This document shows, in pieces, positions 6,701-38,591 of a stretch of DNA of 39,487 bases (position 1 is the first letter of the stretch; each line of letters begins with the position of its first letter). The notes under the pieces are model-generated. The model was not told where the DNA came from and searched no databases. It worked only from the letters and a program-made list of their open reading frames with translations. The stretch comes from Pseudobdellovibrionaceae bacterium (GTDB lineage: Bacteria > Bdellovibrionota > FAC87 > UBA2466): NCBI GenBank assembly GCA_023250715.1, contig JAHFAF010000012.1, forward strand, positions 1 through 39,487, in the 5' to 3' direction. Position numbers and translations under genes: made by a program.

Positions 6701-9700
6701 GCATCTCCTCCCCCGACGAGTCCAATTGCCGGAACAACCGTGTCCACCACCGGCGCATCCTTATAGACAAAGGGCAATGGATACTCGACGATTTGACCGT
6801 CTCCATTAGTGAGCTGAATTGTCGCGTTCCCTGCTGTGGTTGCCGCCGGAGTATGGAAACTCACATGGGTAGAATCGACGACGACGGGGTCCGTGGAGCT
6901 GATTCCACCCACCTTCACACTAGCCCCGGAGAGAAAACCTGTCCCCGTGAGCGTGACGAGAGTGCCTCCCGCCATCGGGCCTTCCAACACATCGGCGCCA
7001 CTCAAGGTGGGTGGCGGATTCGTGTAGGTGAAAGCATTTTGCTTCACGCGCGATTGGCCGTAGGAGTCGGTGACAACAACATTCACCTGGCCCGCGCCAT
7101 GCACGCTCGTCACGCAGGAAATTGTTGTATTCGTAGCAACCAAATTTACCGGCCCGCAGCTCGATCCACTTCCCAATTCCGCAGCGCCGATTAATTTCAC
7201 CGTATCGGAAGAGCGTAAACCAGTACCCACGATCGTAAGAACTGTTCCACCGAGCACGGTACCGGTGGCTGGCGCTACGGAATCCACCACCGGCGCGTCT
7301 TTATAAACAAAATTCTGAGGGTAGGTGACATTTTGTCCGTCTGAGTTCGTCAATTCAATGCTAGAGGAAGCCGCTGCCGTGGCAGGAGGAGTGTGGAACC
7401 TCACATGGGTGGAATCGACGACAACGGGGTCCGATGAGCTCACGCCGCCCACTTTCACGCTGGATCCGAGGAAGCCCGTTCCCGTAAGTGTTACCAGAGT
7501 GCCCCCGGCAAGAGGCCCTTCCAAAACGTCCGCGCCACTCAGGGTGGGGGCCGGGTTCACATATTGAAACGCGCTCAGCTTTACGCGCACCTGACCGTAG
7601 GAATCAGTCACCACTACGTTTACGACGCCGGCGGCATGACTACTCGTCACGCAGGAGATTGTTGTATTGGTAACAACCAAATTTACCGGGCCGCAGTTCG
7701 ATCCGCTTCCAATTTCCGCAGCACCGATTAATTTCACCGTATCGGTGGAGCGCAGTCCGGAGCCTACGATTGTAAGTACGCTGCCGCCACCTGAAAGACC
7801 CGTTGCAGGGGTAACCGAGTCAATAATCGGCGCATCCTTATAGATGAAGGGCTGCGGGTAAGTAACCACTTGAGCATCTGCATTGGTCAATTCAATGGTG
7901 GCGGAAACCGCTTGCGCAACACCCGGAGTGTGGAATCTCACATGGGTGGAATCCACAACAGTCGTGTCAGGAGCTGCGATCGCCCCAACTTTTACGGATG
8001 CACCCGTCACAAAATTTGCACCAGTCAGGGTGACTAAACTTCCGCCCGCAAGAGGCCCTTCCAAAATATCCGCCCCACTCAGAGTAGGGGGTGGGCTCGT
8101 GTAGCGAAAAGCTTGAGGTTTTGTCCTGGACTGATTGAAAGAATCGGTGACGACAAGATCAACCGCGGTCGCACTCGCTGTTCCCGTCGGGGCGACACAG
8201 GAAATCTTGGTATTCGTCTCTAAGACGGCAACCGAGGTACAGGGTCTACCGTCCACCTTCACGGTACTTAACTCATTCAAACCTACACCGGTGATGGTGA
8301 GAAGCGTATTCACATTTGCAAGGCCAGTCGCCGGAGTTACCGTGTCGAGGGTCGGTGCATCTTTATAAGTGAACGCTGAAGTGAGGGAGCGCTTTTGGCC
8401 GTCGCCGTTCGTCAACTCCACATCCACCCCACCCGCCACTTCCTGCGACGGAGTAATAATTGTGACTTTTGTTGAGTCGACGAAAGTTACATTCGAGACC
8501 GACTTATTGCCGAATTTGACGGAGACCGGGCTTCGAAATCCACCGCCATTTAAGTCAACAGAAGTTCCGCCAACAAGTGCTCCTTCGGAGACACTCAAAC
8601 TGGTAAGACTGGGCGGCGGGAAAACATAGGTGAATAACCCTGTTTTACTGGAGCTTTGCCCGTCCGGATTAACGACGGTAATCGTGTAAGAGCCTTCGTC
8701 CGTCTGGGAGGGTGAGGTACAACGCAGCTGCGATGCCGAATCGAATAAAACCGGCGTACAGGATTTGGAGCCCAGCTGAACCGTCGCCCCGTCCTTAAAA
8801 TCATTTCCCGTAATCGTGAGGGACTGCCCACCGCTCGTCGAACCAGAAGAAGGAGAAACTGATCCGACGTTCGGAGGGAGAATGAATGTGAATGCATTAG
8901 AAAGCGCGTGCTGTTGACCGTCGGAGTTAATCACGGCGACTTCCACGGCTCCGGCAATGTGGGACTTTGTTGCAAAAGTGAGGCTGGTATCGCTAGCGAG
9001 AACTACATTGCTAGCATCTTCTCCATCCAACGTAATGCGTACACCCGAAGTGAATCCCGTGCCGACGGCAGTTACGGCCGTTCCGCCATTAGAGGTTCCA
9101 TGATCTGGGGAAATGCTCGTCAAATGCGGGGCCGGAAAGAGGATATAAGTGTACGGTGAAGTGCCTGACTGCCCATCCGTATTCAACACGCGAACGTCTA
9201 CGCTTCCCGCCGCCTCATGCCGCGGAACTTGGCAAACCAATTGGGTAGAACTTACTCGGGTGGTGTCCGTACAGGGCAATCCCCCGACGAATATCTGAAT
9301 TCCCGATAGAAAGTTTGTTCCCGAAACGGTGATATTATTTCCACCGCCCGTAGAGCCAGAGGCCGGGACTACTGCGGAAATGGACGGGGCTGGAACGGTG
9401 ACAAATCGATAAGATCCCAACAAGGAGCCGACGTTCCCGTCCGTGTTCGTTACGGCAACATCTACGGTGCCCGTTGCGTGCTCCGGTGTCTTGCAAGAAA
9501 TTTGCGTATCACTATCGACCACCACGTTGGAAGCACTGTCATTTCCGAATTTGACCGTCGCCCCAAAAACAAACCCGGTTCCCGTAATCGTGACGATCGT
9601 TCCGCCTCCGATAGTTCCAGAAACCGGCGAAAGGGACGTAACGGAAGGAGCAGGAAGACTAACGTAATTGAATCCATCGGCTTTCGCGCCCGATCGAAGA

Positions 9701-14138: not shown

Positions 14139-14531
14139 ATGCCCGACGACAAAAAAGATGACAATTATTGGAAGGGTAAACTTTCCCCGGAAGAATTCCA
14201 GATCACACGAAAAAAGGGGACTGAGCGAGCCTTCACGGGGGAGTACAACGCTTGTAAAGATCCCGGAACCTACCTCTGCAAGTGTTGCGGTGAGCCTCTA
14301 TTTTCCTCCGATGCCAAATTCGATTCTGGGACCGGATGGCCGAGCTTCTTCAAGCCGTTGGAGAAACAGGTCGAGTCCGAAGATGATTCCAGTTTTTTCA
14401 TGAAACGCACCGAAGTGCATTGCCGCAAATGCGGCGCACACCTGGGCCACGTTTTCGACGATGGACCGGAGCCCACCGGAAAACGCTACTGTATCAATTC
14501 CCTTTCTTTGAAGCTCGAGAAGAAGACGTAG
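14139..14531 (+). CDS. msrB: Peptide-methionine (R)-S-oxide reductase MsrB, cytosolic
   Basis: 130 aa, typical MsrB length without a signal peptide. It reduces methionine-R-sulfoxide in oxidised proteins. The four zinc cysteines (Cys47, Cys50, Cys95, Cys98) and the catalytic Cys118 in GKRYCINS are present, as are the signatures [10 protein letters not shown] and [13 protein letters not shown]. The start ATG lies 3 nt after the helicase stop, with AAGAGG as Shine-Dalgarno inside the helicase end, so translation is likely coupled. Its last 38 bases overlap the 3' end of the convergent exonuclease gene. A second, exported MsrB is encoded at 30031-30477. Confidence 0.96.
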
Positions 14532-15251: not shown

Positions 15252-16763
15252 TTACTTAAATCCCTCGAGAAAAAGTAAGAGCCCAGTCTCCTGAAACAAC
15301 TTTTCTTGGCGCTCGGAGTTTAAGCTTTTCAAGAATGGCCAATATTCCTTCAAGACCGCTTTCCTTTCCTTAGTTACTCTTTTCGGATCTCCCATTTCGA
15401 GTCGTGCGTCGCCAAGAGCATCCAACCTCTTCCTCATTTCCTCCAAAATCGGGACATCTTTTTCGTAGCTCATTTCGATCAAAGCGTCGGAGACGTTCCT
15501 CAGATTTCTGCGCGAGAGCCGAAACCTCTTTGGAAGTACTTTACCGAATGGCCGCACCCGTTGGAAAGATCCATTAGACTCCGGATCAAGACATTGAATT
15601 TCATCAAGTTTAGACGCGTAAGCGTTACAGATTTTTTCCGCCCACGCAAATAGGGGGCCGCCGCCTGAATAACTAGCGTAAGCGACCTTCTCGAGCCATT
15701 TACCGTCCTTGTCTTTAAAAATATAACAGTCCCAGTTATAGAGCTGCGTTGGAAAGCATACAGCGCTGCTTGTGGCTGCGGGTGTTCCGCTAGCTTCAAT
15801 CCATGCAAAAGGGTAATCCCACGCATCCTTCTTGGGGATGTATTGGTAGTCTTTATCATAAAGAGTTATCGTCCGCGCTCCGGCCGCGGTATCATCTACG
15901 ACGCGCTTTTCCACCGGTTTAGCCGCGTAAGCAGCCAAAAAATAGGATTGGAACCCTTTGAGCATGAATTCTCTTTTGATACGACAGTAGATTCCTTTTT
16001 TTCGTACCGACTGAACGTATGGTTTTTCTCGGCTCACTTTCACATACCTTTCGGTCACTGGAATGCTCGCCATAAAGCAATACCCCCCAAGCGCCTCGAA
16101 ATAAGTGGGCTCACCCAGAATATCTAAAGACCCGAAAAGAAGACCCTCTTCAATTTTCGAGTAATCACTCCCAATGATGGGTAACTTCCCCCACCAACCC
16201 AGGTCTTTTTCTTTCAAAGGAGATTGGTCGTCACCAAAGGGCGCTGGGAACCATTGGATTTCATATTCTCCCACACGATTTGTTTCCCGGAATTCAGATA
16301 TAGTGTTCCCCGTGGCTTTCAGATAATGCTTGTTATCGAAACGCCCTTGCAAAAGACTTTCTGGCAAAAGGGAGGGGGGATTTTCAGCATATTTAAGAGC
16401 ACGACAAAGGAACTTGTCTCCCAAAAGTCCGCAAACTTGATTATTTCCCAATGACAGAGAGTTCGCCTTGGCGAGTTCAGGATAGTACGAGACTCTTTTA
16501 TCCTTCCATGACCAGCAATAGAGCATGTTGTCATCTTGAGCACATTGCCCTTTTTCGGAGGAAACGATCTGAGAGATAGGTCCGATGTCGTAAAGAAAGT
16601 CTAAGGACTCCGTTTCTCCCGTTGGCCCAAGACAAAAAAGCTCCTTATCCTGGACTGCACAAAGATGCGTGAGTCCACCCGTGACGGAGGCGACGTGACC
16701 TGGCGCCGGTAAGCACATTAGAAAAAAGGCCAGGTACATCACTTTTTCATTCCAACTATTCAT
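15252..16763 (-). CDS. Exported RCC1-like beta-propeller protein A
   Basis: 503 aa from the ATG at 16763, chosen because GGGAGG precedes it and a signal peptide follows (MNSWNEKVMYLAFFLMCLPA); an in-frame ATG 48 nt upstream overlaps the previous gene. The N-terminal half has degenerate RCC1-like blades recognisable as C-(A/V/G)...(L/F).CW: HLCAVQDKELFC, GQCAQDDNMLYCW, QVCGLLGDKFLC, then a blade without Cys, then YC...YC, VCFPTQLYNWDC and ICNAYASKLDEIQC. The C-terminal 90 residues are helical and charged. It is a paralogue of the gene immediately upstream, 13 nt away, and is the last gene of the operon starting near 23387. It is probably periplasmic or on the surface. Function is unknown; propellers of this class bind proteins. 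Confidence 0.8.
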   Translation of the reverse strand: MNSWNEKVMYLAFFLMCLPAPGHVASVTGGLTHLCAVQDKELFCLGPTGETESLDFLYDIGPISQIVSSEKGQCAQDDNMLYCWSWKDKRVSYYPELAKANSLSLGNNQVCGLLGDKFLCRALKYAENPPSLLPESLLQGRFDNKHYLKATGNTISEFRETNRVGEYEIQWFPAPFGDDQSPLKEKDLGWWGKLPIIGSDYSKIEEGLLFGSLDILGEPTYFEALGGYCFMASIPVTERYVKVSREKPYVQSVRKKGIYCRIKREFMLKGFQSYFLAAYAAKPVEKRVVDDTAAGARTITLYDKDYQYIPKKDAWDYPFAWIEASGTPAATSSAVCFPTQLYNWDCYIFKDKDGKWLEKVAYASYSGGGPLFAWAEKICNAYASKLDEIQCLDPESNGSFQRVRPFGKVLPKRFRLSRRNLRNVSDALIEMSYEKDVPILEEMRKRLDALGDARLEMGDPKRVTKERKAVLKEYWPFLKSLNSERQEKLFQETGLLLFLEGFK

Positions 16764-16776
16764 TTTCGTTCCTCCC

Positions 16777-18318
16777 TTAACTCGATTCCAATGATAAATA
16801 AAATCCCACAATCAACCCCATCAGGCCCGGCGTTTTAGTCTTCGGATAAGCTGCCATCCGCTCGAAATATGTCTTATGACGCTTTAGCATGTTACCAACA
16901 GCGCTAATCTCCATCGGATGAGGATCGGCTGCGAACTCACCAAGCGCAGCAACGATAGTATCAAGGGTGGCCTTATCATCTTTGCGCGGTAGAAATTTCC
17001 TATGGGAGTTCAATGCGGTGATCAATAACAGCACAGACATCTCCGCCCTCTTTTCATCCGGTGAAAAATCTTGGAGTGATTTAATTCCATTAGCCAAATT
17101 CATAATGGTAAGTTGGCGCAAAAAATTCGTGGGAATATCGTTTCGAAAGTTTGGGATTTCTACATTTTCTAAAACTGGCCTAAGTAAATTAGCAAAAAAA
17201 AGTTCAGTCCCTGGCTGGCCCGCGAGAACCTCTTTCGCCTTGGCCAACACGGCTGCGTCTCGGTCATATAGCAATTCATCAATCCTTCCCAAGGTGTCTG
17301 CCAGAAAAAGGTCTGAGAAATCAAAATAGCTCATCAGTGTGATCGATCCCCTCACGCTAAACGGCTGGTTTGTCTCTCCAGCTTTCGTACATCGAATAGT
17401 TCCAGTATTTGTCACCAAACAGATCTCCTGTCCCACCATAACAGGCTTCGAGATGTCCGTTGGGGGTAGCGCAATAGTGGTGAGTGCGTTTTGACAAAGA
17501 GTTTCATTGGGATAACGACGAAAGCATTTTGAATCCGGGGCCCTTGCTGTCACCCCACATTGGATCGTCCGTTCATCCAAAGAACGAATACAAAAAGCTC
17601 CGTGAGTGTCCGAAAAGATCGGAGAAATATCCGCTGAGAGATTTCCTCTAAAAAAGGTGGAGAATTTCGGATGTTGAGGAAGGCCCTCCAGCCCCTCCTC
17701 CAGCCCAGTGAGATCGGAGCAGGAAAAATGGCCTGTAAAGACGGGCTTCTGTGGTTGAACGCAGAGCGAATTTCCAACAATTAAGGGTTTTACGTCTGGT
17801 GCCAGACCACTGACCGCGTAAGACGCCTTTTCTTTGCCGTTGATTCTCCCCGTACAAAGCAAGCGAGTTGCGGCTGCATCTTCAAAACGGCAGGTAAATG
17901 ACGCTCCCACCAAAGAATCGCTGGTTGCTAACCCCGTTATTGGTGCAAAAGTGTGTTCGACGCAGGAGACTCTCCCTGATTTTTTTCCGCAAGCGTGGTT
18001 TTCTGTGACGTGGATATTACTAATCTCTGTAAACTCCGGGTGGGAATCTAATATCTCGGGGGCTCCCCATTTCCAACAATGCAACGCAAGCGAATCGCGA
18101 ACACATTGAACCGAATCAGTTGAGAAGGTGGCTAGGGGAAGAGTGAACTGTGGAAGCCTTTCCTTCGCTAACGGAACTCCCTTTTCCCAGCATTTGAACC
18201 CATCGGCATCGATCGCACATACTCGATTGGTACCCCCCGTAAAGTGAAGCCACTTAGCGACGGCGCCATAAGCTCCGCTCGGCTGCAATATTAGAAACAC
18301 GGAAAAGAGCAACTTCAC
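16777..18318 (-). CDS. Exported RCC1-like beta-propeller protein B
   Basis: 513 aa, starting with GTG inside a GTGA overlap with the stop of the protease gene; AAGGTGG lies about 8 nt upstream, so translation is coupled. The signal peptide is MKLLFSVFLILQPSGAYG. Seven RCC1-like blades can be counted, each with a Cys pair: RVCAIDADGFKCW, VQCVRDSLALHCW, HACGKKSGRVSC, FTCRFEDAAATRLLC, SLCVQPQKPVFTGHFSC, AFCIRSLDERTIQC and EICLVTNTGTIRC. Seven is the number of blades in a closed RCC1 propeller, and the paired cysteines suggest a disulfide staple per blade in an oxidising compartment. A helical C-terminal domain of about 150 residues follows. It is a paralogue of the downstream gene. The function is not recognised. 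Confidence 0.82.
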   Translation of the reverse strand: MKLLFSVFLILQPSGAYGAVAKWLHFTGGTNRVCAIDADGFKCWEKGVPLAKERLPQFTLPLATFSTDSVQCVRDSLALHCWKWGAPEILDSHPEFTEISNIHVTENHACGKKSGRVSCVEHTFAPITGLATSDSLVGASFTCRFEDAAATRLLCTGRINGKEKASYAVSGLAPDVKPLIVGNSLCVQPQKPVFTGHFSCSDLTGLEEGLEGLPQHPKFSTFFRGNLSADISPIFSDTHGAFCIRSLDERTIQCGVTARAPDSKCFRRYPNETLCQNALTTIALPPTDISKPVMVGQEICLVTNTGTIRCTKAGETNQPFSVRGSITLMSYFDFSDLFLADTLGRIDELLYDRDAAVLAKAKEVLAGQPGTELFFANLLRPVLENVEIPNFRNDIPTNFLRQLTIMNLANGIKSLQDFSPDEKRAEMSVLLLITALNSHRKFLPRKDDKATLDTIVAALGEFAADPHPMEISAVGNMLKRHKTYFERMAAYPKTKTPGLMGLIVGFYLSLESS

Positions 18319-19805
18319 GGATATTCCACCTTCAGCTCGTCAATTCTGTTTTCCACCTGACGCAGTGTCTTTTTGAGCGCGATCGTTTTTTCTGAATCTA
18401 TATTAAGAAGAATCGCCCAGTCGTCCTTATAGGAACTACGTAAACGGGCGACATCCGAGGAATAGATCACTCGCCATTCGAGTTTCATTAATCTTGCAAG
18501 AAATCCCAGTTCCCGAAACAGCGACTTGGTGGATTCCTTCTTAATGAAGGGGGCCAGGGATAAGAGGCTAGCTTCCATAGTAGTCGCGTAAGCCTGAAAG
18601 TCGGCCGCGCTTTTCGAGTCCGGTTCATCGCCCATTGCGATCTCGACGCTAATCAGTTTAGGATCCTTGCGTTTTACGAAATAATCTTCGACGGAGTGAA
18701 TGGGCTCAGTACTCAACTTTCCCTTTCCCACCCTCTTGAAGAAGAAGGGAATCTTTATTGGGGTAAAACGGGTCCGGTTCTTCACGCCAGCGAACCATTC
18801 TTTGAGAGGGGAATGGTACAGTTTTGTTTTTCCCTCTGAATAATCATTGCGATCGATGGTCAATAAACAGTCCGTTTTCAAATCTAGAACCCCGCCTCCG
18901 ACACCGTCACCACCACCAACCCCATCGCCTCCGCCCACTCCATCTCCCCCGCCAATCTTGAAAGTCGCTTCTGTCCTTTTGCAATTTGAAACCTGGAATT
19001 GCAGACCTTGCGTATGGAAGATAGTTTCTCTTCTCGCCTGCTCCTCAGGATTCCACATGAAGTAAGGGCGATACTCTGAAGGCAGGAAGAAATATTCCGC
19101 AAGCCATTCTGAGACCACATGGCTAGGCAATAGAATAGGTTGGTTTTCGACCACCTTTGATTCCGGTGAAAAGAAGGCCACCTCCGATTCATCGATGGAA
19201 ACCAACTTTCTTAACTGACGCGTTAAGAACCCGTACACCAGGTCGCCTCCCGGTGAAAACACAGGCCCCCCGCTCATACCGAACTCCGCGAACCCCATTC
19301 CCAATAGAACTACCTTACTCAGAAGGGGAAAGCCGTGGAGAGACGTTTGTGGAATCAGAACATAACCCCTTTTGTTATGGATGAGTTCTGTTTCGGTAAA
19401 GGAGGCAAATCCCGTAATCACGACCTTCTCATTTTCTTCGAAGAGATGATCCTTCGCGAGCACTTCGAGAGTGGGAAGATCCGTCGACGGGTATCCCGGG
19501 GGGTCTACTTCGTATAGCGCGAGATCATTTCCCGCTTCCGCCGCCAAAAATCGCAGTTTCTTTCGCTCTAGGTTAATATCTGAAAATTCTGCGCAATAAT
19601 CGGTGTTCTCACGAAGTAAGACGGCGTGGCCTGCCCCCAATACGTATTCTTTGTTATCCCGTTGAAAGCGAAACCCACTTCCTTTCCACTTGAGATCGGA
19701 GGTCTCGCAAAGGCCTGAATGGGTCTTTACGATCGCAAGATCCGAAATAGGTACGGCAATCACCGGAAAGGCAACTATCAACGCGAATAAGGCGATATGT
19801 CTCAT
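18315..19805 (-). CDS. Exported trypsin-like serine protease with extended C-terminal region
   Basis: 496 aa from the ATG at 19805, which has GGAGG 7 nt upstream, overlaps the stop of the regulator gene by 4 nt (ATGA), and opens a signal peptide (MRHIALFALIVAFPVIAVP). A chymotrypsin-fold (S1/trypsin-like) triad is visible: His60 in LGAGHAV, Asp94 in AGNDLALY, and Ser178 in FGMSGGPVF. The protease domain ends near residue 240. A C-terminal region of about 250 residues follows that I do not recognise. It contains a low-complexity insert GGGDGV repeated three times (residues about 285-306) and a helical tail resembling in character those of the RCC1-like neighbours. It probably acts in the periplasm or outside the cell; the substrate is unknown. 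Its tight coupling to a regulator and two propeller proteins suggests they work together. Confidence 0.85.
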   Translation of the reverse strand: MRHIALFALIVAFPVIAVPISDLAIVKTHSGLCETSDLKWKGSGFRFQRDNKEYVLGAGHAVLLRENTDYCAEFSDINLERKKLRFLAAEAGNDLALYEVDPPGYPSTDLPTLEVLAKDHLFEENEKVVITGFASFTETELIHNKRGYVLIPQTSLHGFPLLSKVVLLGMGFAEFGMSGGPVFSPGGDLVYGFLTRQLRKLVSIDESEVAFFSPESKVVENQPILLPSHVVSEWLAEYFFLPSEYRPYFMWNPEEQARRETIFHTQGLQFQVSNCKRTEATFKIGGGDGVGGGDGVGGGDGVGGGVLDLKTDCLLTIDRNDYSEGKTKLYHSPLKEWFAGVKNRTRFTPIKIPFFFKRVGKGKLSTEPIHSVEDYFVKRKDPKLISVEIAMGDEPDSKSAADFQAYATTMEASLLSLAPFIKKESTKSLFRELGFLARLMKLEWRVIYSSDVARLRSSYKDDWAILLNIDSEKTIALKKTLRQVENRIDELKVEYP

Positions 19806-21712
19806 AATGAGGCCTCCAAGACTTTTGAATGATATCTGGTATGTCTTCCCTTTCCCTCGCGATCGACCAACCCCTTTTCGATCCAACTGGAAAGAATACG
19901 ATTCATGCTGCTTCGTGGTTTCTTGAATTTAAGTTCCAATTCATTACGACTTTGAAAGCCCTGCCAAACGGGCCGTGGAACCACCCCGGCCACCAAGCGC
20001 TCTGCAGATGAGCTAGAAACTAATTTTTTAGAATTTGGAAAGTATCCCGACATCTGCGCCTCATGCGGCCTTCGTTTAAAATCGCAGATACACCAATCAC
20101 CCTCTCCGATAACGAAACCCGCCTTCACACGAAACGTGAAAGTTTCCGGCATTATTTTCTTGAGGCGCGAAAGCAAATTAGAGACCTTGCCACCATGGTC
20201 CAAAAAATCGAACCGAGAAATGTCGAAGACATGCCTTGAAAATTCCTCCAAACTTACAGTGCCCCTTTTCTTTAGGAGGTCCAACGCAAGGACCGCGGAT
20301 TTGGAAATATGATTTCTTCCCTGCCTATCAGTAATTTGATGAAGCGTAAGATCAATGAGGATAATCCTAGCAGGAAAATTCGATGGGACTTTATCTATCA
20401 AAGAACGCAAGGACTCTACGAGAGAAGCAAGACACGTGGGCGCCACTTTGTTGGAGGAAAGAGCAGACTCTATCAATGAACGAAAGAGTAGCTCATCGGA
20501 ACTCCATAAGGGGCTACTCTTGAGATTAAAAAGATACTCGTCAGATTTTGCTATATCTCCGTCTCGCAATGCGACAAACAATTGGATAAAGAGATATTCG
20601 TACTGGAGCAAGGAGTAGCCGGGATTTTCCTTTGATTGGAATAGGGACAAGACTTCTTCGATCTTTGCCTCGCTTTTCGAATCGAAGAGACCAACCCAGC
20701 TGAGAGCATTTCGAATGAGATAATAGTCTTCCCAGGTGGTACGGTGGGACCAATCTAAGTCCAAGTTTTCCACTAGAACCGCGACTTTGAGAAACGGAAA
20801 CTGATTCGGAGCGCAAAGCCATTTCCAAACCCACGAGTAGAGGCGATCCACATGCTCAGATGGCTTGATAATCCTCAGATCATCGGGATGAAAAATACCC
20901 GCTAATGTTCGAAAACGGTAAGCACAGTAATCGATGGTACAACAAGCCCCCGCCAACTCACCCAGAAACTCCCCGCCTGTATCGGCACGATAGCCGGCGT
21001 GGTAAGGAAGCGACTGAAGCCATTCAACGTAATAGGTGGGCTGCTCGACGCCTGAGCCAGCCCCCTCCAAACCTATCTCGATCGCCTTTCTGATCTCGCC
21101 CTTACGAAAAAACAGCCTTTGCTTCAACGCCTTGAGCTGAGATAGGACTTTTGAAACTGTCTTCTTATCCTTTATACCCGATAGAAGGGTCTCGATCTCC
21201 TCTAGTTTGTCATTATAAGGAATCCCCAGGTTCTCTTTGCACAAAACAATGTTGGTCTTCGCGCAGAGTTTCTGAAAAATTGTGGGAGCTTGTCTCTCCC
21301 ATTGAACCAAACTCTCAAATGCCGAGTAGTACTCACCACGACCAAAATCCAACATTGCCTTTTCGTATGAGTAGTAACAATGACTCATCAAGTCTATTTG
21401 TCTTGAGTTTCTTTCGACCTTTTCGAGCATTTCTTTCGAGTAATGATGGGCTTTGTTCGACCTCGCTAAAGAGGAGCTGAGCAGAAGAAGATCAACAATA
21501 CTTTCTCGGTTTGGGGATTTTAGCAACAATTGCACTTCCGCCTCAGAGAGGCTTCCAAGCGGGATTTGTAGTTCCTGTTTGAGCTTCGACAAGAGAGGGA
21601 GACAAGTATCGAAGTCATGATTGATCTTTAGCTCCCATGCTCGATCAATTTCCGCCGCAAGCTTAAGGGACGATTTTTCCCGTGTGGGTGCCACTTCAAT
21701 TCTCGAACTCAA
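19802..21712 (-). CDS. Cytosolic helical-repeat protein with two C-terminal winged-helix-like segments (putative regulator)
   Basis: 636 aa without a signal peptide. Residues about 1-450 are helical with TPR-like spacing (for example HCYYSYEKAMLDFGRGEYYS and FRKGEIRKAIEIGLEGA). Residues about 468-537 resemble an OmpR/SARP-type winged helix (SAVLALDLLKKRGTVSLEEF, then KVSNLLSRLKKI). The last 52 residues look like a second winged helix of MarR/GntR type (SRNELELKFKKPRSSMNRI, then EKGLVDREGKGRHTRYH). This suggests a transcription factor sensing a protein partner through its helical repeats. The frame opens with TTG at 21712, overlapping the upstream gene by 17 nt; a GTG at 21694 is an alternative. 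Its stop overlaps the protease start by 4 nt. It probably controls this operon, but that is inference. Confidence 0.75.
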   Translation of the reverse strand: MSSRIEVAPTREKSSLKLAAEIDRAWELKINHDFDTCLPLLSKLKQELQIPLGSLSEAEVQLLLKSPNRESIVDLLLLSSSLARSNKAHHYSKEMLEKVERNSRQIDLMSHCYYSYEKAMLDFGRGEYYSAFESLVQWERQAPTIFQKLCAKTNIVLCKENLGIPYNDKLEEIETLLSGIKDKKTVSKVLSQLKALKQRLFFRKGEIRKAIEIGLEGAGSGVEQPTYYVEWLQSLPYHAGYRADTGGEFLGELAGACCTIDYCAYRFRTLAGIFHPDDLRIIKPSEHVDRLYSWVWKWLCAPNQFPFLKVAVLVENLDLDWSHRTTWEDYYLIRNALSWVGLFDSKSEAKIEEVLSLFQSKENPGYSLLQYEYLFIQLFVALRDGDIAKSDEYLFNLKSSPLWSSDELLFRSLIESALSSNKVAPTCLASLVESLRSLIDKVPSNFPARIILIDLTLHQITDRQGRNHISKSAVLALDLLKKRGTVSLEEFSRHVFDISRFDFLDHGGKVSNLLSRLKKIMPETFTFRVKAGFVIGEGDWCICDFKRRPHEAQMSGYFPNSKKLVSSSSAERLVAGVVPRPVWQGFQSRNELELKFKKPRSSMNRILSSWIEKGLVDREGKGRHTRYHSKVLEASL

Positions 21713-30030: not shown

Positions 30031-30477
30031 TTATTTCTTCTTCGCAGCGGGAGTAAATCGCAGACAAACCGAATTGATGCAATACCTCTTCCCCGTCGGC
30101 TTAGGTCCATCATCGAAAACGTGGCCTAGGTGGGCGCCACAGCGGCTGCATTTCACTTCCGTACGGTGCATCCCGTACGCATTATCATCGGTAAGAGTGA
30201 CCTTATCGACGGCAACGGCTTGAAAGAAGCTGGGCCATCCAGTGCCGGAGTCGAATTTTGCCTCCGAAGAAAAAAGTTCCTGGCCGCACGAAGAGCAAAC
30301 AAATGTGCCCTTCTCGGTGAAGTGAGCATACTTACCCGTAAAAGGACGCTCGGTCCCGGCCTCGCGGCAGACGGATATTTCTTCCGGCGTCAGTTTTGTT
30401 TTCCAATACTCGAGAGGTTTTGTTTTCAGATCTTCTGCTGCAAAAGCGGAAACAAAAAATAATATAAGAAAGGTCAT
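30031..30477 (-). CDS. msrB: Exported peptide-methionine (R)-S-oxide reductase (periplasmic MsrB)
   Basis: 148 aa with a short signal peptide (MTFLILFFVSAFA, cleavage before AED; it lacks the usual basic N-terminus). Zinc cysteines are Cys61, Cys64, Cys110 and Cys113; the catalytic Cys133 is in [19 protein letters not shown] and [13 protein letters not shown] are intact. Extra cysteines (Cys37 and Cys137) could act as resolving residues. It repairs oxidised methionines in envelope proteins. The ATG overlaps the stop of the response regulator by 4 nt (ATGA), so it is translationally coupled to a regulatory gene. That suggests the two-component system responds to envelope oxidative stress, as HprSR does for MsrPQ in Escherichia coli (analogy only). 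Confidence 0.93.
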   Translation of the reverse strand: MTFLILFFVSAFAAEDLKTKPLEYWKTKLTPEEISVCREAGTERPFTGKYAHFTEKGTFVCSSCGQELFSSEAKFDSGTGWPSFFQAVAVDKVTLTDDNAYGMHRTEVKCSRCGAHLGHVFDDGPKPTGKRYCINSVCLRFTPAAKKK

Positions 30478-31259: not shown

Positions 31260-32741
31260 ATGGCCGCCCGCCCTGCACTACCAGCCCTTTTGCCGTTGAC
31301 CAAACGCGTCGCTTCTATCGCGGGTGGAGCCCTAATTCTGCTCAGTTGCTCGGCTCGGCCCTTGTTCGCAATGAACGTAAAGGACGCCTTTTCTTTATTC
31401 CTCTTAGGCATCGCTATCTTGAGTTTGCATTGGCCCATGGCCAAGTATCATCAGTTTCTGGGACGCAGCATTGGAATCAGTCTTTTATTAATTAGTGGAG
31501 GAACTCCTTGGGCCATTCGTTTGCTGGACGCGAGCCTTCTCTTTCTCCCCAGTCCCTCTTCGAAAAAATATTGGCTGGGACAGCTTCTGATTTTGACCGC
31601 GGGAAGCATGGGTTTCTATCAAGCACTAAACTATTCGCTCGAAATGAAAGGCGAGTCCGTCTTTCAACCCCACATGCCGCTAGCAACTCTCTCCGGAGTT
31701 CTCCTCTCCGTGATTGGCTTATTCTGTCTCAATCCCCACCGTGGAATTATCGGGCTTCTTACAAAATCTAGCGCCGGGGGCATGCTGGCGAGAAGGCTTC
31801 TTCCCTGGGCACTTGGAATTCCTCTACTTCTCTGGTGGTTTCGAATTTACGGTCAGGCCCATCACTTTTATTCGGAAGAGCAAGGCTTCGCGCTTTTCTT
31901 CACGCTCACCCTGGTGACCCTCGTGATCCTGATCACACGGACTGCGCTGCGATTACACGACATGGATTCTCAGCGCGCAAAATCTGCCGAAGTAATCGAG
32001 ACCCATCGAAAGGCGCTCCTTTACTCCTCGAAGATGTCGGCCCTCGGAGAGATGGCGAGCGGAATTGCACACGAAATCAATAATCCTCTTTCTGTCATTT
32101 ATGGCGAAGCCGAAGGCCTGCGCGAGCTTGCGACCGCTAAAAAACTCAACTTCGAAGAAGTAGCGCGGCTTGCGACAAAGATTGAAGCGACGACCGAGCG
32201 TATCTCGCGAATCGTGAAGGGTTTGAGAACTTTCGCTCGCGATTCCCGCGAGGAGCCTTTTGTATTCGTGCCCCTCTATCAAATTCTCGAAGATACACTG
32301 GCTTTCTGTCGTGAACGTTTCAAAATTCACAAGACCCAGCTGGAAGTCGCTAAAATTCCCCTTTCCTTGCAGATTGAGTGTAGGCGGGTCCAACTCTCCC
32401 AAGTTTTTCTGAACCTTCTCAACAACGCTTTCGATGCCGTTCACAATCAAGAAGATCGTCAAGTTCGAATTGATTGGAAAGAGATCGGCCCCGACATCGA
32501 ACTTCAAGTTAGTGACAATGGCCCCGGCATCCCTGAAAAAATTCGAGACAAAATATTTCAGCCTTTCTTTACGACGAAGGAAGTGGGAAAGGGTACGGGC
32601 CTTGGTCTCTCAATAGCAAATGGAATTATCGAGGCCCACCAGGGGTCACTCCGGGTCGAAACCCCACCGACGGGAAATGGATCGGTCTTTAAGGTACTCC
32701 TGCCCCGAGTACAGGCGAAAGATCAGAAGAAAGCGGCCTAA
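31260..32741 (+). CDS. Membrane-bound sensor histidine kinase (ZraS/NtrB-type core)
   Basis: 493 aa. Roughly six or seven hydrophobic helices span residues about 17-230, with no large periplasmic domain, so it may sense within or near the membrane. The cytosolic part has a dimerisation/phospho-acceptor helix EMASGIAHEINNPL with His271, an N box LLNNAFDAV, G1 DNGPGI, F box PFFTTK and G2 GKGTGLGLSI, in the order of an HATPase_c domain. It autophosphorylates and passes phosphate to a response regulator, probably the divergent PhoB-like one. Its stop codon overlaps the stop of the convergent gene by 3 bases. There is no clear ribosome binding site before the ATG. Confidence 0.94.
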   Translation: MAARPALPALLPLTKRVASIAGGALILLSCSARPLFAMNVKDAFSLFLLGIAILSLHWPMAKYHQFLGRSIGISLLLISGGTPWAIRLLDASLLFLPSPSSKKYWLGQLLILTAGSMGFYQALNYSLEMKGESVFQPHMPLATLSGVLLSVIGLFCLNPHRGIIGLLTKSSAGGMLARRLLPWALGIPLLLWWFRIYGQAHHFYSEEQGFALFFTLTLVTLVILITRTALRLHDMDSQRAKSAEVIETHRKALLYSSKMSALGEMASGIAHEINNPLSVIYGEAEGLRELATAKKLNFEEVARLATKIEATTERISRIVKGLRTFARDSREEPFVFVPLYQILEDTLAFCRERFKIHKTQLEVAKIPLSLQIECRRVQLSQVFLNLLNNAFDAVHNQEDRQVRIDWKEIGPDIELQVSDNGPGIPEKIRDKIFQPFFTTKEVGKGTGLGLSIANGIIEAHQGSLRVETPPTGNGSVFKVLLPRVQAKDQKKAA

Positions 32742-33694
32742 TCCGCCCTTTCAGCCATATTAATCACCGTATCTAGCATGATATTTCTGGACTGCTCTTC
32801 GATATACTTCAGCTCAGCCCGGAAGTCTCCGGCGGTAAAATACCGGATGTAGCCATCCGAATTTAAAAACCACTGCGAAATTACCCCCCCTGCGACCCTG
32901 GATACGCTCACGTTTACCGTACGCCCACTGGCCAGAACGTCCTCGACATTCACTGGAAACTTAATGGTGGAGGGAGTAGGAATTGTCCCTCCTTCAAGAA
33001 AAAATTCTTCAAGGCCGTCTTTTTCACGCGTTTCAAACTTCTGTTCCGCGTAGTACCCGAAGCCCGTTAGAAACCCCAAAAGTTCCGGACCCCGTACCGA
33101 GATTAGTCCTCGCATGGGGGAACTCTCAATTTCATCCTCCTCCGGCAAGGGTTTGTCCGTCTTTATATCGTAAGGAATGAGATCAAGAATGAAGTAAAAG
33201 CCCCCATGCTTATTCGCATACTGTTTCGCATGAAGGATGGAGCTCCGTAACTTTTCAAACGTAGATTTGAGTTTGCTTGAACTTTTTTCGGCCACCTGAC
33301 AAGAGCCATTCGATATATACCAAACCTCCTTCGCGGCCGTGCCCTGAATTACCCGCTTCTCGGTCTTTTGAGCGGTACAAGGACCGCAAAGAGAAACAGC
33401 GTCAATCCACGAGCTGCGCGCCGAGATCGTATGCTTCTCCTGCGCCTCAACGGCGGATGCCTCCCCCTCTTGCTGGAGAGTTTTTAACTTCTGCTTTTCC
33501 GCATCCAAAGCGACCCGTTTTTCCTCCAGGGTCTTTCGGCATTCCGGATTCTCCATCCGGGCCGCAAAAAACTCGCGAGAGGTTTTTCCACCGGTAAGAA
33601 CCAGATCCACACCGGGTTCCGGAATTTTCGGCTTGTCCAAAGCGGTGGCGGAAGTTGAAACCAATACCCAACCCAAAACTACAAATAAACGCAT
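32738..33694 (-). CDS. Exported protein of unknown function with an N-terminal coiled coil
   Basis: 318 aa from the ATG at 33694, which opens a signal peptide (MRLFVVLGWVLVSTSATA); an upstream ATG would extend it by 12 residues into the SDR gene. After cleavage the sequence has a heptad-like coiled coil (TLEEKRVALDAEKQKLKTLQ), a Cys cluster (LCGPCTAQK), then a mixed alpha/beta region with FYFILDLIPYD and GPELLGFLTGFGYYAEQKF. No family is recognised. It starts 8 nt after the SDR gene and may be the last gene of that operon, though its exported nature sets it apart from the cytosolic enzymes. Its stop codon overlaps that of the histidine kinase tail to tail. Confidence 0.72.
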   Translation of the reverse strand: MRLFVVLGWVLVSTSATALDKPKIPEPGVDLVLTGGKTSREFFAARMENPECRKTLEEKRVALDAEKQKLKTLQQEGEASAVEAQEKHTISARSSWIDAVSLCGPCTAQKTEKRVIQGTAAKEVWYISNGSCQVAEKSSSKLKSTFEKLRSSILHAKQYANKHGGFYFILDLIPYDIKTDKPLPEEDEIESSPMRGLISVRGPELLGFLTGFGYYAEQKFETREKDGLEEFFLEGGTIPTPSTIKFPVNVEDVLASGRTVNVSVSRVAGGVISQWFLNSDGYIRYFTAGDFRAELKYIEEQSRNIMLDTVINMAERAD

Positions 33695-33702
33695 CTTTCG
33701 GC

Positions 33703-34527
33703 TTATAAAGGGTAGTGGTTTAGAAGCCAATCTTTAAAGCTACGCGCTAATAACACCTTAGATCCTCGAATCGTGGTACGTGGAAAAAGCCGGTACATTC
33801 GAAGCATTAGCCGTCCATTCCAGGTGGGGAAAACCTCGGCCTCCCCCCGGGCAAGTGCAGCCAAAATCTCCCGGGCGACAGTATTCGGAGAAACGAGTGC
33901 CCACTCGAGCCATTTGGGAAAACCAAGAGTCTGCCCCTTTGCCAAAATCGACGTATTTACGAATCCAGGAGAGACGAGACTAAGTTTCACGGAGGAACCC
34001 GAAAGACGGAGCTCTTCTCTCAAAGCGCGAGTGAAACCTACTACCGCATGTTTGGTGGCTACATAGGCAGACATGAAAGGGGGGGCCAAATGCCCTGCAA
34101 CGGAAGCAACATTTACAATTCTTCCCTTCCCACGACTCTCCATATCTTTGAGAGCAAGACGAGTTCCCTTCACCACGGCTTGCAAATTAATTTCAATCAC
34201 GCGATCAAATTGCTCCCCGGTAAGTTTCTTGAATTCCCCAAGCCCAGAGACACCGGCATTATTGATCCAAACATCCACCGGAGAGGCCTCTCTAAGAGCT
34301 CTTTCCAAGGTAGTCTCCTCGGAAACATCTCCGACGACAGGATGAACTTTTTGCCCAAGCTTGCGAGCTTCTCTTTCCCACGCAACAAGGCCGATTTCAT
34401 CGAGGTCCACCGCCCAGACCTCCGCACCCGCTTCCAATAGCTTTTCCCCGAGCGCTCGCCCTATCCCGCCGGCCGCTCCGGTGATGACGACTCGCCGTCT
34501 TTGAAAGGCCTTACCAATTTTGCTCAT
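33703..34527 (-). CDS. Short-chain dehydrogenase/reductase (SDR)
   Basis: 274 aa, classical SDR length. NAD(P)-binding TGAAGGIG (16-23), the stabilising NNAG (89-92), and catalytic Ser142 with Tyr155-x3-Lys159 (SAYVATK) are all present. Asp41/Asp43 at the end of beta-2 (VDLDE) favours NAD over NADP. It oxidises an alcohol or reduces a ketone; the substrate is unknown. The C-terminal 80 residues, rich in aromatic and hydrophobic residues (FPKWLEWALVSP, LMLRMYRLFPRTT), suggest a lipophilic substrate or membrane association. The start overlaps the M24 gene stop by 17 nt. Confidence 0.94.
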   Translation of the reverse strand: MSKIGKAFQRRRVVITGAAGGIGRALGEKLLEAGAEVWAVDLDEIGLVAWEREARKLGQKVHPVVGDVSEETTLERALREASPVDVWINNAGVSGLGEFKKLTGEQFDRVIEINLQAVVKGTRLALKDMESRGKGRIVNVASVAGHLAPPFMSAYVATKHAVVGFTRALREELRLSGSSVKLSLVSPGFVNTSILAKGQTLGFPKWLEWALVSPNTVAREILAALARGEAEVFPTWNGRLMLRMYRLFPRTTIRGSKVLLARSFKDWLLNHYPL

Positions 34528-35350
34528 CGATCCACTCCGCCCCCTTTGGGGTCACAAGTAAAATCTCTTCGAACTTCGCCCCGAAATATTGGGTTCCCAA
34601 ATGAGGTTCGATCGCCCAAAGCCCTACCCAATCCCCTTCGAACTGCGGACCAAGAAGTTGGCCGAAAAGGCCCCGCGACGTCAGCTCCCAATAAGATTGC
34701 CACCCGAAATTCCAAAATTTGAAACGCCTGGCCTTTTCAGAAGTCCGGTGCACCCGATGGCCCAATACGGAAAACGGGTATTTCTGGTGGATATTCTCGT
34801 AACCCTTTTCTTTGATTTTATCGTCGATAATACGCCAGAGATCCCCACCCAGAATCCATTCGGGAATTCCCGCTCGAAGTTCCTCTAAAAAAGCCCGCGC
34901 GCGTTGAAACTCCGGATTCGAGCCCAAGCTCGCCGTGTAGCCGATATCGCAGATAAAACCTTTGAAGACCGGCGCAACATCCAAAATGAAAACTTCGCCT
35001 GGCAGAATAATTCTCTTGGAAGGCGAGTACTCGGCATAGGTCCGAATTCCGTAGAACCGCGTTCTTTCCCCGAACCAGGCAAATGGGTGATGGAAAAATC
35101 CGTTTACTCCGTGGTCGCCCAGGTAGGTGCCGACGAGCTCGGCCGCCTGCTTCTCTGTCCAGCCTTCGCGGATCATCGCCCCCACTTCTTTTACCGCTTC
35201 CTGCGCTAACCGCTGTGCCGAGCGAAACCCAGCGACGGTCTCGGCGTCGGGGACCGAATTCACGGGAGGAGCATATCTTCGGAAAAGGGGAAGAGCGGTG
35301 ACTCGTGAAGCTCTACGAAGAAAGGGCTCCAATCTCAGATCTGTTCTCAA
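34511..35350 (-). CDS. M24-family (creatinase/aminopeptidase P-like) metallohydrolase
   Basis: 279 aa. The pita-bread metallopeptidase ligands are all in order: Asp124 (ILDVAP), Asp135 (CDIGYT), His198 (LGHRVH), Glu248 (AIEPH) and Glu262 (KFEEILLV). A preceding HHPFAWFGERTRF supplies the substrate-binding His. The N-terminal creatinase domain is absent, so this is a single-domain form. Such enzymes cleave Xaa-Pro bonds or related amide/guanidino substrates with two metal ions. The frame opens with TTG at 35350, with GGGGAG 4 nt before it, overlapping the hydrolase gene by 38 nt; a GTG at codon 30 is an alternative. It is cytosolic and part of the overlapping enzyme operon. Confidence 0.88.
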   Translation of the reverse strand: MRTDLRLEPFLRRASRVTALPLFRRYAPPVNSVPDAETVAGFRSAQRLAQEAVKEVGAMIREGWTEKQAAELVGTYLGDHGVNGFFHHPFAWFGERTRFYGIRTYAEYSPSKRIILPGEVFILDVAPVFKGFICDIGYTASLGSNPEFQRARAFLEELRAGIPEWILGGDLWRIIDDKIKEKGYENIHQKYPFSVLGHRVHRTSEKARRFKFWNFGWQSYWELTSRGLFGQLLGPQFEGDWVGLWAIEPHLGTQYFGAKFEEILLVTPKGAEWIDEQNW

Positions 35351-36182
35351 AAAACTCCCCTAGAAGCCGGTTCACCCGTTGAGGGTCAACCCGGTGCAGC
35401 CAATGATTACCTGGGAGTATACGGCAGGTAAAGTGCGCGGCGAAAGGTCGAAACTCTTCGTAATTGGGAGGAGCCAGAAAGGCGTCCTTTTCCCCCCATA
35501 AGACAAGAACCGGGCAATTTACCGATGGAACGGGATTGCGAAGTGCCCGAGGCAACTCTTTCGCAAATTCACGGTACTGCTGGAGCGGAGCTTCAAGACA
35601 CTCCTGGACCTGTTCCTTCTGCAAAGCAATCGATTCCGGAATCTCGCCCAATTGATGGGCTACTCGTAAGAGTGTCTTTGGAAAAAATTTTACGGCGAGC
35701 TCAGGAACCCGTGGCATCTGGAAAAAATAGATGTACCAGGATTTGAAAAGTTGATGGGGCCGATTGATCCGCCGGGCCATCACAGGAAGTGGAAGGCCGT
35801 TCATCAATACGAGCCCTTTCAATCTATCGCCGAGATAAAGCGCCAGATTCGACGCATGCACGGCCCCCAGATCGTGGCCTACGCAATAGATCGGCCGCTT
35901 TCCCTCAGGATCGACTCGATTTAGGACCTGCAATAGATCGAGCGCCGAGGCCTTAAGACCAAAGCGGTCTTTCTTGGAGCTATTTTCCGAGGGGCCGGCC
36001 CCGCGCGTGTAGGGGCAAATCACCTCATAGCGGGACTGAAAATGTTCGGCCTGAAATTGCCAGGTCTCCGGGGAATCGGGAAAGCCGTGAAGAAAAAGAA
36101 GAATGGGATGGGAAGAATTCCCGGATCGCCACCAAGCGGTACGAAGGCCCCGTAGACGCGCTATTTCCAAATGCCCCGTCAT
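35313..36182 (-). CDS. Alpha/beta hydrolase with Asp nucleophile (epoxide hydrolase/haloalkane dehalogenase class)
   Basis: 289 aa. The oxyanion motif HGFPDS (32-37), nucleophile elbow GHDLG (Asp104 in place of Ser), acid Asp233 in GEKDAF and His260 in GNHWLHRVDP define the Asp-nucleophile branch. Two cap-domain tyrosines in SWYIYFFQMP (Tyr150, Tyr152) point to epoxide hydrolase rather than dehalogenase, because such tyrosines activate the epoxide oxygen. It is cytosolic with no signal peptide. Its ATG overlaps the stop of the diiron gene by 4 nt, so it is translationally coupled. It may open an epoxide made by the neighbouring oxygenase; that link is inference. Confidence 0.92.
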   Translation of the reverse strand: MTGHLEIARLRGLRTAWWRSGNSSHPILLFLHGFPDSPETWQFQAEHFQSRYEVICPYTRGAGPSENSSKKDRFGLKASALDLLQVLNRVDPEGKRPIYCVGHDLGAVHASNLALYLGDRLKGLVLMNGLPLPVMARRINRPHQLFKSWYIYFFQMPRVPELAVKFFPKTLLRVAHQLGEIPESIALQKEQVQECLEAPLQQYREFAKELPRALRNPVPSVNCPVLVLWGEKDAFLAPPNYEEFRPFAAHFTCRILPGNHWLHRVDPQRVNRLLGEFFENRSEIGALSS

Positions 36183-37180
36183 ACGGCGGTTAGAGTCAAG
36201 GAAGGTTGCGGGTAGGGAATGCCGAAAACGCCGAGGCGCTGTGCCTCAAGGAGAGTTTGCGTGTGGTGACGCGTATTCAGAAGAACACTCAAATAAGGCG
36301 CTGAAACGAATAATCGATGAATCACGCTGGGCCAGGATAGGGAATCAAAGAGAGGAATACAACTGGCAAGCGTTTCGAAGAACGGGTGCACTCCCCTCAA
36401 CTCACGCACCCTAAAAAATTTCTGAAGCTCAGCCAAAACCCACCCCGATGTAAAACATTGCGCTGTCAGGAGATCGGTTTTTGCCAGCAGTGCCTGCTTC
36501 ATCCCTCCTCGTGCGCGGCCCATGAGCTCCAGCATAAGAAAGGCATAATTTCTATGGCGCGATTCTTCCTCGAGATGCCTTAAGTGAAGTTCATGATAAA
36601 GCGGATCCACCAATTCCTTTGAGCGGTGGAGCTCTTTGTAAAGTTGAATAGAAACTTCCTCGACGGTGGCTACCGTCCACCAAAACGCTCCTCCGCCTGC
36701 TTCGGAGTTTTTCAAAATCGTATGCAAGTACCAAGAACCCCAGGTTTTGGGTAACAGCTTCTCTACTAAATCTGGACTGAGCCCCATTTGCTCGCAAAAG
36801 AGATCATTGAACCTGCGAAAAGCGAGAGAATGCTTTTCCTCTTCTTCAAAGAAGAGAACACCTAGCTCCTCCATTTCGGGATTAATGGGATAGGAGCGAA
36901 GGACTCTCGCCCACGCGGGATCTCGCATTTTATTAATGACCGATTCGGTTTCGGCAATCATGGAATTAATGACGAGTCCCAACCACTGCGAGAGAGCCAG
37001 GCGTTGCTCGCCGCTTGCGCCGGGAAAAGCTATCGCGTCCGCATCGAGCGGAAGAAAGGAGCGAGTAAGATCAATACCGCCACCCCAGGAAATACTATCC
37101 TCTAAGTGCCATGCATGCCTTCGCTGGCTCTTGACCTGAGATTGCAGCTTTTGTTCGTCGAACGGGTTCCATCCCGCCAT
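36179..37180 (-). CDS. AurF-like diiron protein (putative oxygenase)
   Basis: 333 aa of ferritin-like helices. The metal-ligand pattern of AurF-type diiron oxygenases can be traced: Glu77, E114-x2-H117 (EEKHSLAF), Glu174 or Glu175 (VATVEEVSIQLY), and H202-x3-E206-x2-H209 (HLEEESRH). AurF oxidises an arylamine to a nitroarene; relatives N-oxygenate or hydroxylate diverse substrates. Some predicted metal-dependent hydrolases share a similar fold, so the activity is not certain. It is cytosolic. The ATG lies 8 nt after a TATAAC box with no Shine-Dalgarno sequence, so the mRNA may be leaderless. It is the first gene of a four-enzyme overlapping operon and is divergent from a PLP decarboxylase. 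Confidence 0.8.
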   Translation of the reverse strand: MAGWNPFDEQKLQSQVKSQRRHAWHLEDSISWGGGIDLTRSFLPLDADAIAFPGASGEQRLALSQWLGLVINSMIAETESVINKMRDPAWARVLRSYPINPEMEELGVLFFEEEEKHSLAFRRFNDLFCEQMGLSPDLVEKLLPKTWGSWYLHTILKNSEAGGGAFWWTVATVEEVSIQLYKELHRSKELVDPLYHELHLRHLEEESRHRNYAFLMLELMGRARGGMKQALLAKTDLLTAQCFTSGWVLAELQKFFRVRELRGVHPFFETLASCIPLFDSLSWPSVIHRLFVSAPYLSVLLNTRHHTQTLLEAQRLGVFGIPYPQPSLTLTAV

Positions 37181-37185
37181 GTCTT

Positions 37186-37195
37186 AATGTTATAG
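37186..37195. promoter_or_regulatory. Divergent overlapping -10 boxes, AATGTTATAG
   Basis: The 25-bp divergent spacer contains AATGTTATAG. It reads TATAAC on the minus strand (37189-37194), 8 nt before the diiron gene ATG, and TATAGC on the plus strand (37191-37196), 9 nt before the decarboxylase ATG. Neither gene has a ribosome binding site, so both mRNAs would be leaderless or nearly so. The same 10-mer lies at 28231-28240. Confidence 0.5.
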
Positions 37196-37205
37196 CTACC
37201 GCATC

Positions 37206-38591
37206 ATGGACGAACTACGCACCGCATTCGATCCCGAACAATTCCGACGGCACGGCCACAAACTAGTGGACCACTTGGCCGACTACTTGAATGGAGTCCT
37301 AGAGGGCAAGGGCCCGGTACACCCTTGGATAGAACCGGAAAAGAGACTGGCAAATTGGCCCAAGATCGAAACTCCAGCACCGAACTTGAGCCAAATTTTT
37401 TCCGATCTCATCGAGCAAAGCCAGCATTTGCATCACCCCTCCTACGTGGGACACCAAATGGCAGTGCCCCTTCCCCTAACGGCTCTAGCCGATCTCGCCA
37501 CATCGGTTTTGAACAATAGTAGCGCCATTTACGAGATGGGCCCCTCAGGCGTTCTCATCGAAAAGAGATGCCTCGAATGGATGGCGAAAACTCTGGGTTA
37601 CAGTCCCGAAGCGGACGGCGTCTTTACTTCCGGTGGGACATTGGGAAATCTCACGGCCCTCTTGGCCGCCCGCCAAAAAAAGGGCGGGGGAAATTGTTTC
37701 CTCGTTTCCGATCAAGCGCATTACTCCATTGATCGGGCGGTAAAAATCATGGGGTGGGGTGAAGAGGGGCTGGAAAAAGTCCCGGTCGATGAGAAATTCA
37801 AGATGCGGGTCGAAGCACTCGAGCCGACACTTCGCAAAGCTCGCGATGCGGGAAAGAGAGTCATCGGCATTAGCGCCAATGCCTGTTCGACTTCGACCGG
37901 ATCGTTTGATCCGCTGCCCGAAATAGCAGCCTTCGCAAAAAAACAGGGCCTTTGGTTTCACGCGGACGGTGCGCACGGGGCGGCCACTTGTTTGAGTGAA
38001 AAATACCGCTCCCTAGTAAAGGGAATCGAGCAGGCCGATTCCGTTGTGTGGGACGCCCACAAAATGCTCATGGTCCCGGCCCTCACTACAGCGGTACTCT
38101 TCAAGGACGGAACGGACTCCTTCGAGACGTTTTCCCAGGAAGCCTCTTACCTATTTCAGAAAAGCGCCCGAGAGGAATGGTACAACCCCTGCCATCGTAC
38201 TTTAGAATGTACGAAGAGAGACTTTGCCTTTCGCCTCTACCTAGTATTGCGCGCATATGGGCAAGGCCTGTTCGCCGATTACGTGACCCGGCAATATGAT
38301 CTGGCCCGAGCCTTCGCGAGAAAGCTCGAGGATACGGATGACTTCGAAATAGCCATTAAGCCAGAGTCCAATATCGTGTGCTTTAGATATACGGCAATGA
38401 AAAGTGCGGACTTGGATAGCTTTCACACCCAAGTCCGTAAGAAAATAATTGCGTCAGGAAAAACTTATCTGGTGCAGGCACAACTCCCCAAGGGAGTTTA
38501 TCTGCGCACCACAATAATGAACCCCTTCACGACGGAAGAGGTTCTTGAAAATGTGATCCAGGAAGTGCGAGCTGAATTCGAGAAGCTCTAG
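37206..38591 (+). CDS. PLP-dependent group II amino-acid decarboxylase
   Basis: 461 aa, close to the usual length of aromatic-amino-acid decarboxylases. PLP contacts: TSGGTLGN (141-148) for phosphate, His172 (DQAHYS) stacking on the ring, Asp254 in HADGAHG pairing with the pyridine nitrogen, and Lys286 in WDAHKM forming the Schiff base. HPSYVGHQM and the SSAIYEMGP active-site segment are as in this family. It decarboxylates an amino acid (aromatic amino acid, glutamate, aspartate or diaminobutyrate are all possible) to the amine. No Shine-Dalgarno sequence precedes the ATG. Divergent pairing with the AurF-like operon suggests the amine product might feed those enzymes. Confidence 0.94.
   Translation: MDELRTAFDPEQFRRHGHKLVDHLADYLNGVLEGKGPVHPWIEPEKRLANWPKIETPAPNLSQIFSDLIEQSQHLHHPSYVGHQMAVPLPLTALADLATSVLNNSSAIYEMGPSGVLIEKRCLEWMAKTLGYSPEADGVFTSGGTLGNLTALLAARQKKGGGNCFLVSDQAHYSIDRAVKIMGWGEEGLEKVPVDEKFKMRVEALEPTLRKARDAGKRVIGISANACSTSTGSFDPLPEIAAFAKKQGLWFHADGAHGAATCLSEKYRSLVKGIEQADSVVWDAHKMLMVPALTTAVLFKDGTDSFETFSQEASYLFQKSAREEWYNPCHRTLECTKRDFAFRLYLVLRAYGQGLFADYVTRQYDLARAFARKLEDTDDFEIAIKPESNIVCFRYTAMKSADLDSFHTQVRKKIIASGKTYLVQAQLPKGVYLRTTIMNPFTTEEVLENVIQEVRAEFEKL

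Follow-up and report, generated by a model that had tools for sequence, protein, structure and literature searches.

The DNA analyzed here is a 39,487-nt stretch from a Pseudobdellovibrionaceae bacterium (hereafter the window). It makes up one entire contig of an assembly that is fragmented into 542 contigs, with 97.5% completeness and 8.6% contamination. A preliminary description had proposed that four overlapping minus-strand enzyme genes, encoding an AurF-like diiron protein, an alpha/beta hydrolase (ABH), an M24-fold protein, and a short-chain dehydrogenase/reductase (SDR), form a cluster with a divergently transcribed PLP decarboxylase. All five ORFs were re-found intact at the positions given earlier (Table 1), together with the overlaps of 17 nt (SDR/M24), 38 nt (M24/ABH, presupposing a TTG start of the M24 gene that is uncertain), and 4 nt (ABH/AurF-like) and the 25-bp spacer between the AurF-like gene and the decarboxylase (37181–37205).

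Table 1. Genes of the operon and its flanks in the window, with family assignments
Feature	Position	Strand	Basis of assignment
Uncharacterized protein downstream of SDR	32738–33730	−	ORF
SDR (short-chain dehydrogenase/reductase)	33703–34527	−	Pfam adh_short 1e-49
M24 (pita-bread) metalloenzyme, distinct subfamily	34511–35350	−	Pfam Peptidase_M24 5e-17
ABH, epoxide-hydrolase type	35313–36182	−	Pfam Abhydrolase_1 4e-24
AurF-like ferritin-fold diiron oxygenase (predicted), first gene of the operon	36179–37180	−	Pfam AurF 9e-9
PLP-dependent group II decarboxylase, divergent neighbor	37206–38591	+	Pfam Pyridoxal_deC 3e-58

Among the subset of window ORFs that were scanned, none encodes an NRPS, PKS, or transporter, bearing out what had been said of the neighborhood. 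The window operon has no gene for a reductase, carrier protein, or CoA ligase beside it and, except for a two-component pair farther downstream, none for a transporter or regulator either. A scan for promoters and terminators returned nothing exceeding chance. In the ORF downstream of SDR, an ATG at 33694 opens a signal-peptide-like stretch; if this start is used, the gene begins ~8 bp past the SDR stop, and it is possibly co-transcribed with the operon. Its product has no Pfam match and is unmatched at the other operon loci; it is lineage-specific and not conserved with the four-gene module.

Elsewhere in the window, a 3572-aa ORF (703–11421, −) has 28 matches to TIG domains along with several Kelch/beta-propeller stretches; its product is probably a giant surface protein. 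Three consecutive proteins of ~520 aa (15252–19886, −), of which one has a trypsin-like domain and the other two lack a Pfam match, are possibly a secreted set. The contig also carries two MsrB (SelR) methionine sulfoxide reductase genes (14139–14531, +, and 30031–30477, −), the latter with a signal-peptide-like start.

The order AurF-ABH-M24-SDR on one strand was found at 19 loci including the window, spread over several families of the Bdellovibrionota, which are kin of predatory bacteria (the window, genomes G003, G004, G007, G009, G011, G013, G096, G162, G163, G207, G234, G312, G331, and G366 and loci L034, L035, L036, and L037; L035 and the G312 locus are cut by contig ends). Four further genomes (G002, G012, G354, and G355), in which contig ends split the operon, have an arrangement consistent with this order. 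Its recurrence with the same order and orientation at 18 other loci puts the four-gene run far beyond chance. Pairwise distances of the four proteins correlate across 15 loci (Mantel r 0.85–0.92, partly raised by shared species ancestry), and their trees are largely congruent, with the main groups in agreement. The distance correlation shows that the four genes are inherited together, with a contribution from species ancestry. The scattering in relatives that would have spoken against the cluster is not seen for these four genes, and their linkage as one conserved unit is nearly certain. The proposed cluster thus stands for these four enzymes, which very likely act jointly on a small molecule, and the decarboxylase is not a member.

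A search of the open-access literature returned no description of the four-enzyme module, and the operon is apparently undescribed. Its M24 subfamily is patchy, occurring in about 30 of 369 Bdellovibrionota genomes. The pattern with which named records were searched for relatives was strict, and divergent members will have been missed by it. Of 274 genomes sampled from the gammaproteobacterial class, only 42_54_T18 carries the module, and carriers in Burkholderia and actinobacteria turned up in a plasmid collection; the true distribution of the module is under-sampled. In G035, the operon's AurF-like gene is split between two ORFs (L025:7800-8776, −). A class-I glutamine amidotransferase gene lies immediately upstream of AurF in 6/6 sampled genomes of genus g5 (L015–L020; L017:7484-8149, +) and was seen at no operon locus outside that genus. 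An apparent ABH-M24 fusion in G331 (L080) was ruled out by a separate ABH ORF at 8207–9055.

No relative of the decarboxylase lies beside any other operon copy. Its best relative (51% identity) is on contig C62 of G003, where the operon is on C43, and the relatives in G004, G007, and G011, which are only 36–39% identical and may be non-orthologous, are likewise on contigs other than that of the operon and by eye adjoin a glycerol-3-phosphate-dehydrogenase-like gene. The decarboxylase was therefore rejected as a module member, being absent at the other loci and on a different contig in all four traced genomes. Since it is not part of the operon, the amine formation proposed earlier has no basis.

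The AurF-like protein matches Pfam PF11583 at 35.3 bits (gathering score 29.6). Across 29 aligned sequences, the seven iron ligands (E79, E114, H117, E174, H202, E206, and H209) are invariant, giving a pattern of three histidines and four carboxylates (Glu) spaced as in DnfA (PMC9478400). Foldseek comparison of its AlphaFold2 model (pLDDT 92.4) returned CmlI (TMt 0.61) and AurF (0.55) as well as ribonucleotide reductase R2 and R2lox, all with weak E-values (best 2.7e-3), and phmmer found no match in the PDB.

The ABH has the residues expected of an epoxide hydrolase. A pentad of Asp104 (nucleophile), lid tyrosines Tyr150 and Tyr203, Asp233, and His260 is conserved in 22 sequences, the protein carries an HGxP oxyanion motif, and its relatives in the PDB are epoxide hydrolases (5ng7, 1e-24). 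The ring opening suggested in the preliminary description is supported, for an epoxide, by this intact pentad. In the SDR, S142, Y155, K159, and D41 are invariant in the alignment and a TGxxxGIG motif is present; D41 suggests NAD as the cofactor. The SDR also matches the SDR half of the EphD-type family PRK05855 (3.5e-44, below cut-off). In the window, ABH and SDR are separate genes, not the fusion that this NCBIfam model describes, and the scores against it are 119.8 and 151.3 bits relative to a cut-off of 455.

Pfam, alignments, and Foldseek all place the third enzyme on the M24 fold with the five metal ligands of M24 peptidases. These ligands (D124, D135, H198, E248, and E261) are invariant, as are H87, W92, and R96 in the subfamily, and the AlphaFold2 model (pLDDT 90.6) matches X-Pro peptidases with TMq about 0.6. 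The columns of the catalytic histidines H79 and H178 of E. coli MetAP (107 and 201/205), matched by sequence in a remote alignment of distant homologs, are variable. The subfamily therefore likely lacks both catalytic histidines of M24 peptidases, which leaves the amide cleavage assigned to this enzyme doubtful even though the metal ligands are kept.

The module exists in further forms. Beside the same M24, ABH, and SDR, another ferritin family, PF10118, stands in for AurF. Its residues E44, E74, H77, E127, H157, E161, and H164 are invariant in 16 rows and repeat the three-His/four-Glu pattern of the AurF-like protein, from which we infer that they are diiron ligands. The family, with L125:2711-3604 (+) as an example, carries the annotation "metal-dependent hydrolase". 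Gammaproteobacterium 42_54_T18 has two copies of an M24-ABH-SDR-PF10118 arrangement, which lies there in islands with a flavin monooxygenase, an esterase, and an AraC regulator; a TGA interrupts the second M24 copy (L040:7968-8831, +). In further genomes, PF10118-M24 is divergent from ABH-SDR. Burkholderia, Embleya, and Dietzia combine M24 and PF10118 with an EphD-type ABH-SDR fusion gene. The Dietzia fusion scores 710 bits against PRK05855, above the cut-off of 455, and the epoxide-hydrolase pentad is kept in four fusions of the EphD type, with one replacement of Asp233 by Glu. Dietzia and Embleya add a reductase, which in Dietzia has PaaE of the phenylacetyl-CoA epoxidase as its best match (below cut-off), and Dietzia also has a TetR regulator with the module. 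In Dietzia, Embleya, and Rhodococcus, PF10118 has a PDR/VanB reductase in its vicinity; elsewhere, the genes close to PF10118 are those for acyl-CoA ligase, thioesterase, or mycolates.

Desaturases are a second kind of partner. In one Bdellovibrionota family, the place of M24 and SDR after AurF-ABH is taken by one or two membrane desaturases whose histidine boxes are intact, and G003 has a DesA-type desaturase after SDR; most AurF-ABH-M24-SDR loci have none. G108 carries PF10118-M24 without ABH-SDR (L101:7046-8832, −), with a chalcone-synthase-like gene nearby by eye, as well as a separate AurF-ABH-desaturase operon.

We hypothesize that the four genes form an oxidative module whose substrate is hydrophobic and probably derived from a lipid, a reading that we consider about evenly balanced between right and wrong. 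The AurF-like diiron enzyme would activate O2 and oxygenate the substrate, most likely by epoxidizing a C=C bond, which in some relatives could be provided by the desaturases encoded in the same run. The ABH would then use its Asp nucleophile and the two tyrosines of its lid to open the epoxide to a vicinal diol, and the SDR would oxidize an alcohol of this product, probably with NAD+. The M24-fold metalloenzyme may add a further metal-dependent reaction, probably other than classical peptide hydrolysis.

The main argument against epoxidation is the diiron site itself. Sites with three histidines and four carboxylates are, according to PMC12101540, largely confined to N-oxygenases, which would favor N- over C-oxygenation, and the AurF-like protein has all seven ligands. 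The lack of a reductase, carrier protein, or CoA ligase gene by the window operon and of desaturases at most AurF-ABH-M24-SDR loci also speaks against epoxidation. If the module is instead one for N-oxygenation, the AurF-like enzyme could convert an amine to a hydroxylamine, nitroso, or nitro product. M24 would free or trim the amine by cleaving a C–N bond, and ABH and SDR would process the carbon skeleton. Most M24 enzymes hydrolyze C–N bonds, which would suit such a role; however, the catalytic histidines are not conserved in this subfamily, no amine-forming gene is linked, the ABH pentad is intact, and the partners include desaturases and, in Dietzia, the PaaE-like reductase. We regard N-oxygenation as rather unlikely, and oxygenation of a C=C bond followed by epoxide opening on a lipid-like molecule is favored by the pentad, the desaturases, the PaaE-like reductase, and the kinship with EphD.

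A module of this composition could also serve scavenging or detoxification, breaking down foreign or damaged lipids or xenobiotics (e.g., oxidized prey or host lipids) and making no product. Its patchy spread through the phylum, the 42_54_T18 islands, and the Dietzia TetR regulator would fit this role, whereas stable inheritance within families and a window operon that no transporter or regulator adjoins (bar the two-component pair) speak against it, and we judge it improbable. The five-gene pathway first proposed, from decarboxylation to an amine through oxygenation, ring opening, and amide cleavage to alcohol oxidation, has in its favor only that the decarboxylase is divergent from the operon across 25 bp in the window. 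It is largely refuted by the absence of the decarboxylase at all other operon loci and its lack of linkage where relatives were traced, and we consider it highly improbable.

Known systems resemble parts of the proposed epoxidation module. Mycobacterium tuberculosis EphD, an ABH-SDR fusion, hydrolyzes 9,10-epoxystearic acid and affects mycolates (PMC7998700). Like EphD, the module pairs an epoxide-hydrolase-type ABH with an SDR, and its Dietzia form has a true PRK05855 fusion; the window proteins differ in being separate, far under the PRK05855 cut-off, and joined by AurF-like and M24 enzymes. With AurF, CmlI, and DnfA (PF11583), the window protein shares the fold and the seven-ligand pattern and spacing, but its Pfam match is only 9e-9, it lacks a PDB sequence match, and it keeps other gene company. 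CylC dimetal halogenases are ferritin-like relatives of AurF, and fatty acyl chains are substrates for some of them (PMC8406957, PMC12101540); they are set apart by their description with six primary ligands (three His/three Glu), and the window operon has no carrier protein near it. The M24-fold DMSP lyase DddP (PMC4108388) is a precedent for non-peptidase chemistry on this fold, but the window M24 family lacks an N-terminal domain.

In the PaaABCE and BoxB systems, diiron epoxidation is followed by epoxide opening. The module would follow the same logic, and its Dietzia version has the PaaE-like reductase; its gene set is otherwise different, genes for CoA substrates are absent, and the PaaE match is under cut-off.

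Extending the epoxidation reading across phyla, we tentatively propose, at somewhat less than even confidence, a pathway that starts from a lipid-like substrate and its epoxidation by a three-His/four-Glu diiron enzyme of the N-oxygenase type, for which AurF-like and PF10118 proteins are interchangeable. The epoxide would be handled by an EphD-type hydrolase/dehydrogenase pair, and an M24-fold protein with a repurposed active site would perform a new non-peptidase reaction. If this pathway is true, the "metal-dependent hydrolase" family PF10118 is a misnamed oxygenase family, and its members are predicted to be diiron oxygenases. Four poorly annotated enzyme families would be joined in one pathway open to testing, in which the M24 subfamily may have left peptidase chemistry. 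The module would also suggest a functional context in which EphD-type epoxide hydrolase-dehydrogenases, including the mycobacterial cell-wall lipid enzyme, may operate.
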